Positions 53,880 to 54,039 of a stretch of DNA of 64,000 nucleotides are shown here, one piece after another. The notes below the pieces were generated by a model that worked only from the letters and a program-made list of their open reading frames with translations, made no database searches and was not told the DNA's origin. The stretch comes from Dromaius novaehollandiae (taxonomy: Eukaryota; Chordata; Aves; Casuariiformes; Dromaiidae). Made by a program: the position numbers and the translations under genes. The DNA lies in contig NC_088102.1 of NCBI RefSeq assembly GCF_036370855.1, forward strand, positions 41,391,835 to 41,455,834. The letters run 5' to 3'. How positions within the stretch are numbered: position 1 is the first letter of the stretch; every line of letters begins with the position of its first letter.

Positions 53880-54039
53880 CGTGCGTTCACCAAGGTGGGC
53901 TAGCAGCAGGCACGCCTGCTCCTCTGCAGCTGCATCGCTCTTTCAAACAGCCGAGAAAGGAGCTTTGTCACTACAGGCACAGTGATGGTGCTCTCCAGAG
54001 CCAGGCATTGCGCCACTGCCCAGCTGTCTGCAGAATTGC
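53880..54039 (-). CDS. HEATR4: HEATR4 coding exon 7, frameshifted
   Basis: Acceptor CTGACAG|GC, donor CACG|GTAGGT. The first part reads [19 protein letters not shown] then TKLLSRLFE, a good HEAT helix. The last part reads [18 protein letters not shown], also HEAT-like, but in a different frame. The exon is 160 nt, and one extra base would be needed to join phase 1 before it to phase 0 after it. The break lies in or beside 53930-53946. Without the extra base the first frame hits a stop 14 codons further on. Confidence 0.75.

Follow-up and report, generated by a model that had tools for sequence, protein, structure and literature searches.

The HEATR4 gene of the emu, Dromaius novaehollandiae, is probably a recent unitary pseudogene damaged in its 3′ half, a reading to which we assign a probability of roughly 0.6. 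The window, as we call the whole 64,000 nt stretch of DNA analyzed here, is part of a 77.9 Mb contig, one of 271 that together make up a 1.47 Gb assembly. Within the gene we found disabling lesions, namely two frame breaks, a GG in place of the exon 10 acceptor and a missing donor at exon 13, and a search for a functional second copy matched only the gene's own exons. The coding span was modelled as 15 exons that, apart from the exceptions noted here, have open frames, agreeing phases and GT/AG borders. AG is present at 13/14 acceptors and GT at 13/14 donors, the exceptions being the exon 10 acceptor and the exon 13 donor. Chaining in phase is stop-free within exons 1-6 and within exons 9-15 (933 codons), and none of the 13 exons besides exons 7 and 8 carries a nonsense codon in frame. 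The features are as follows.

44172-61396, minus strand: HEATR4 coding span, 15 modelled exons
61396-60528, minus strand: exon 1
59668-59484, minus strand: exon 2
57960-57817, minus strand: exon 3
57011-56811, minus strand: exon 4
56116-55931, minus strand: exon 5
55277-55077, minus strand: exon 6
54039-53880, minus strand: exon 7, which carries HEAT unit 3 and the last part of unit 2; the frame changes within it
53937-53944, minus strand: best-supported site of the exon 7 break by HEAT profile; stops alone allow 53900-53945
53902-53900, minus strand: TAG stop of exon 7 when read literally, giving a protein of 641 residues
53320-53217, minus strand: exon 8, with HEAT unit 4; entry phase 0, exit phase wrong for exon 9
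53277-53287, minus strand: best-supported site of the second break by HEAT profile, surrounding a CCCC run
52010-51892, minus strand: exon 9
50921-50922, minus strand: exon 10 acceptor, GG where AG is expected
50920-50740, minus strand: exon 10
49739-49670, minus strand: exon 11
47811-47622, minus strand: exon 12
46186-46100, minus strand: exon 13
46098-46099, minus strand: expected exon 13 donor, AG where GT is expected
44779-44616, minus strand: exon 14
44374-44172, minus strand: exon 15
41590-43854, plus strand: RIOX1, a single-exon intact open frame (RIOX1_C_WH, E 1.1e-52; JmjC_2, E 1.1e-34)

The identification of the minus-strand gene as HEATR4 is well supported by its position and domain content. 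HEAT repeats are present in the C-terminal half (Pfam with exons 9-13: HEAT_2, E 5.6e-13; HEAT, E 2.3e-07). RIOX1 flanks the gene past its 3′ end, and ACOT-type genes, which lie less than 20 kb past the window edge (BAAT_C, E 2.9e-63, 7e-77 and 1e-58), flank its 5′ side, so that the gene occupies a HEATR4-type location beside RIOX1 and ACOT genes. NUMB, HEATR4 and RIOX1 are named together for pig (PMC7998181), and a human copy-number row is shared by HEATR4 and ACOT1 (PMC7349667). A search of the PDB returned no HEATR4, the matches being either none or merely two designed alpha-Rep proteins, and a search of IMG/VR gave no HEATR4 match.

At least three ACOT-type genes stand in tandem in the 5′ flanking DNA (flank pieces L002:1996 to L003:9890), and the first exons at L002:1996 and L002:8931 encode almost identical peptides, which suggests a recent duplication or gene conversion. 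Elsewhere in the window, positions 32736-35130 form a GC-rich stretch in which each strand carries long open frames; given the synteny, this region may be the NUMB promoter. A reverse-transcriptase-like fragment at 3141-3602 on the minus strand had no Pfam match at E 0.1 and presumably resembles a CR1 element.

Exon 7 is bordered by a CTGACAG acceptor and a GTAGGT donor. Exon 6 leaves one base over (CATG/GTAAAA, the slash marking the border), and the entry phase of exon 7 matches it (G/GC). The entry frame encodes 33 residues, including a HEAT helix up to LSRLFE as stated in the preliminary description of this DNA, and then runs on to the TAG listed above. The rest of HEAT unit 3 (20 residues) follows in the frame that is gained by skipping two bases, as with the loss of one base, and the donor falls between two codons of this second frame, which is the phase that exon 8 needs at its start (PLVHFLLTAQLNS).

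We scored the unit on a HEAT profile built from U1, U2 and U5-U10, eight further units of this gene that were cut by eye. The null set comprised 20,000 random open 33-residue translations of non-exon DNA of the window with a GC content of at least 50%; hmmsearch reported 16,854 of the 20,000 peptides, and the remainder were counted as lower. The second half of exon 7 reached 10.8 bits, a score equalled by 0/20,000 random peptides, and unit 3 joined across the break with an X reached 12.2 bits, again with no random peptide as high (0/20,000). Read literally, the unit scored 0.8 bits, which 1,635/20,000 random peptides reach. A join with one junction residue scored best (12.2), the runners-up being 10.9 and 10.8. 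The frame break in exon 7 is thus confirmed to be present in the sequence, and the preliminary description is right with respect to the gene, the exon and the place and kind of the shift; the profile optimum falls inside the interval 53930-53946 that it had proposed. Codon usage agrees weakly with the break, as the exon 7 codon score was matched by 477/20,000 random non-exon windows and by 2,558/20,000 at a GC content of 50-80%. Pfam gave no match for the first half of the exon, nor for the second half joined to exons 8-9.

The preliminary description had explained exon 7 by one missing base. This fits the exon itself but leaves the gene unrestored, as exon 8, whose wrong exit phase had not been noted, leads to a stop within the first codons of exon 9. 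When gains and losses of 1, 2, 4 or 5 bases were scanned at every position of exons 7 and 8 (264 nt), no single indel opened the chain of modelled exons 1-15, which rules out a single lesion as the full account. Two one-base gains opened the chain at 5,130 position pairs in these exons.

Judged by stops alone, the position of the second break may range from the final bases of exon 7 to the 3′ border of exon 8. HEAT unit 4 joined across the break scored 5.6 bits, with 25/20,000 random peptides as high, compared with -1.7 bits for frame A by itself (11,826/20,000) and 3.4 bits for frame B by itself (218/20,000). The score varies with the exact split, from 8.3 to -1.8, and the join with one residue (5.6) is outscored by one shortened join (6.4). 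The codon log-odds of exon 8 are higher for a different exit frame (10.4 vs 3.1). The GC content of the exon is 73%, and its codon score is reached by 7,324/20,000 GC-rich windows. We attribute the preference for the other frame to GC bias, and the second break gains no support from codon usage. In the following intron, a run of 17 G at 52891-52907 next to a TG repeat is likely difficult for sequencing.

The acceptor of exon 10 reads CTGCTTTCTGCTCTCGG/GGTGAAG, and its pyrimidine tract is normal (12/16). Rescue by an upstream AG failed, as 0/16 AGs within 200 nt yield an open frame; inside the exon, 2/20 AGs keep the frame, with 19 or 38 residues removed. For exon 13, no in-phase GT donor is present where the frame of exon 14 requires one. 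If a GTAAGG located 8 nt within exon 13 (GT at 46107-46106) is used, exon 14 is read into a stop, but this internal donor keeps the frame with 6/14 later AGs inside exon 14. The borders of exons 10 and 13 were placed by phase, partly guided by the mammalian protein. The intron between exons 13 and 14 contains a CTTT microsatellite of 15 copies at 45208-45267. As one lesion is insufficient and two splice sites are damaged, the whole gene looks broken rather than one odd exon. The presence of frame-keeping cryptic sites makes a pseudogene slightly less favoured, and altered splicing slightly more.

In the 1.47 Gb assembly, the DNA of exon 7 gave a single match, its own site, and the protein of exons 9-13 gave five matches, every one an exon of the same HEATR4; in both searches the best candidates were scored. 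HEATR4 was thus found to be single-copy, with no second copy among the scored candidates of an assembly that is possibly incomplete. Up to about 30 kb away from exon 7, RIOX1 and the three BAAT_C exons gave one-frame family matches of almost full length. RIOX1 and these three C-terminal ACOT exons served as the control, and the open candidate chains of the three ACOT genes (221, 274 and 597) were left out of it.

The controls bear on the possibility that the consensus of this GC-rich stretch wrongly lacks one or both of the bases, in which case the gene would be intact or less damaged. In favour of such errors, each break looks like the loss of a single base, the best position of the exon 8 break surrounds a CCCC run (GC content of the exon, 73%), and the other 13 exons are without a nonsense codon. 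However, the homopolymers of exon 7 never exceed three, and the adjacent RIOX1 and the three ACOT C-terminal exons are intact. Moreover, the GG at the exon 10 acceptor resembles a base change rather than an indel, and exon 13 is without its donor as well; an altered acceptor base is not a typical assembly error. We consider assembly error unlikely, though the likeliest of the alternatives.

Alternatively, exon 7 might be skipped, so that the exon 8 break would then keep the frame, the HEAT rod would be shorter by more than one unit, and cryptic sites would be used in exons 10 and 13-14. Among 15 single skips, none but that of exon 7 opens the modelled chain of exons 1-15 (968 codons), and among the 10 double skips tried in exons 6-10, only that of exons 6 and 7 does. 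Frame-keeping AGs are available within exons 10 and 14, as described above. Against this, any one skip would be expected to keep the frame by chance in about a third of cases, exon 8 would begin in frame B, whose overall HEAT score is low (3.4 bits), and three separate splicing changes are required. Skipping both exons 7 and 10 leads to a stop, and stops persist when exon 8 is skipped alone or together with exon 7. We regard altered splicing as improbable. Still more doubtful is the stronger proposal that the lesions of exons 7 and 8 form a compensated pair, with exon 7 skipped, the HEAT rod shortened in the lineage and the gene retained.

The preliminary description had also offered a cryptic acceptor within exon 7, giving a 50 nt exon that starts at 53929. 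The AG is present and the phase into exon 8 is correct, but with this acceptor alone the chain terminates in the first codons of exon 9. Paired with a second acceptor in exon 8 (exon start 53282), it gives an open chain of 972 codons. The pyrimidine tracts of the two sites are poor, at 6/16 and 8/16 (range of the 14 modelled acceptors, 9-14/16), and exons 10 and 13 are left unexplained; with the paired acceptors, as with the skip of exon 7, the damaged sites of these two exons still need to be bypassed. We consider the cryptic acceptor very improbable. A programmed ribosomal frameshift in exon 7, whose two frames share about 46 nt, has hardly any claim, since no X-XXY-YYZ heptamer occurs in this exon and exon 8 has none that is in phase, and since a second shift and two splice defects would require separate explanations.

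We therefore favour recent decay of HEATR4 over assembly error and over altered splicing. According to the pseudogene reading, one base would have been lost in exon 7 and a second one most likely in exon 8, the exon 10 acceptor would have been lost, and the exon 13 donor was probably lost as well. As the exon 7 stop lies mid-message and precedes eight further exons, nonsense-mediated decay would be expected; the most that could be produced is a 641-residue fragment lacking the greater part of the HEAT rod. The decay is called recent because the other 13 exons contain no in-frame nonsense codon, and the pseudogene is called unitary because no other HEATR4 copy was found. We infer from the sequence the loss of HEATR4 function, the order of the events and their age.

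The function of HEATR4 seems little studied: among the matches listed, no paper naming HEATR4 does so in its title or abstract, and no report of HEATR4 loss in birds was found among the matches listed for the open-licence PMC literature. If the lesions are real, the species has lost a vertebrate gene, and a comparison of relatives with and without HEATR4 could reveal its function. If the lesions are errors, the locus serves as a check of assembly quality. Either way, mending a single exon by eye is risky unless the next splice phases are checked.

The emu gene is similar to mammalian HEATR4 in encoding a HEAT-repeat (alpha-rod) protein and in having the same RIOX1/ACOT neighbourhood, but differs in that its frame is broken in exons 7 and 8 and its exon 10 acceptor and exon 13 donor are damaged. 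Human HEATR4 appears in the table of an alpha-rod survey, in which we read the 9 that opens its row as the number of predicted repeats (PMC2647740). A human study lists HEATR4 where it deals with homozygous loss-of-function variants (PMC3868571). A precedent in birds is STK33, for which a role in spermatogenesis has been suggested and of which the 28 neognaths studied have no functional copy; the neognath gene is a unitary pseudogene whose remaining exons carry indels and stops (PMC4509753). The human listing and the STK33 precedent suggest that a loss of HEATR4 would be of a known kind. The two cases differ in extent, as STK33 has lost whole exons in an old loss, whereas emu HEATR4 keeps all 15 modelled exons and carries small lesions only.
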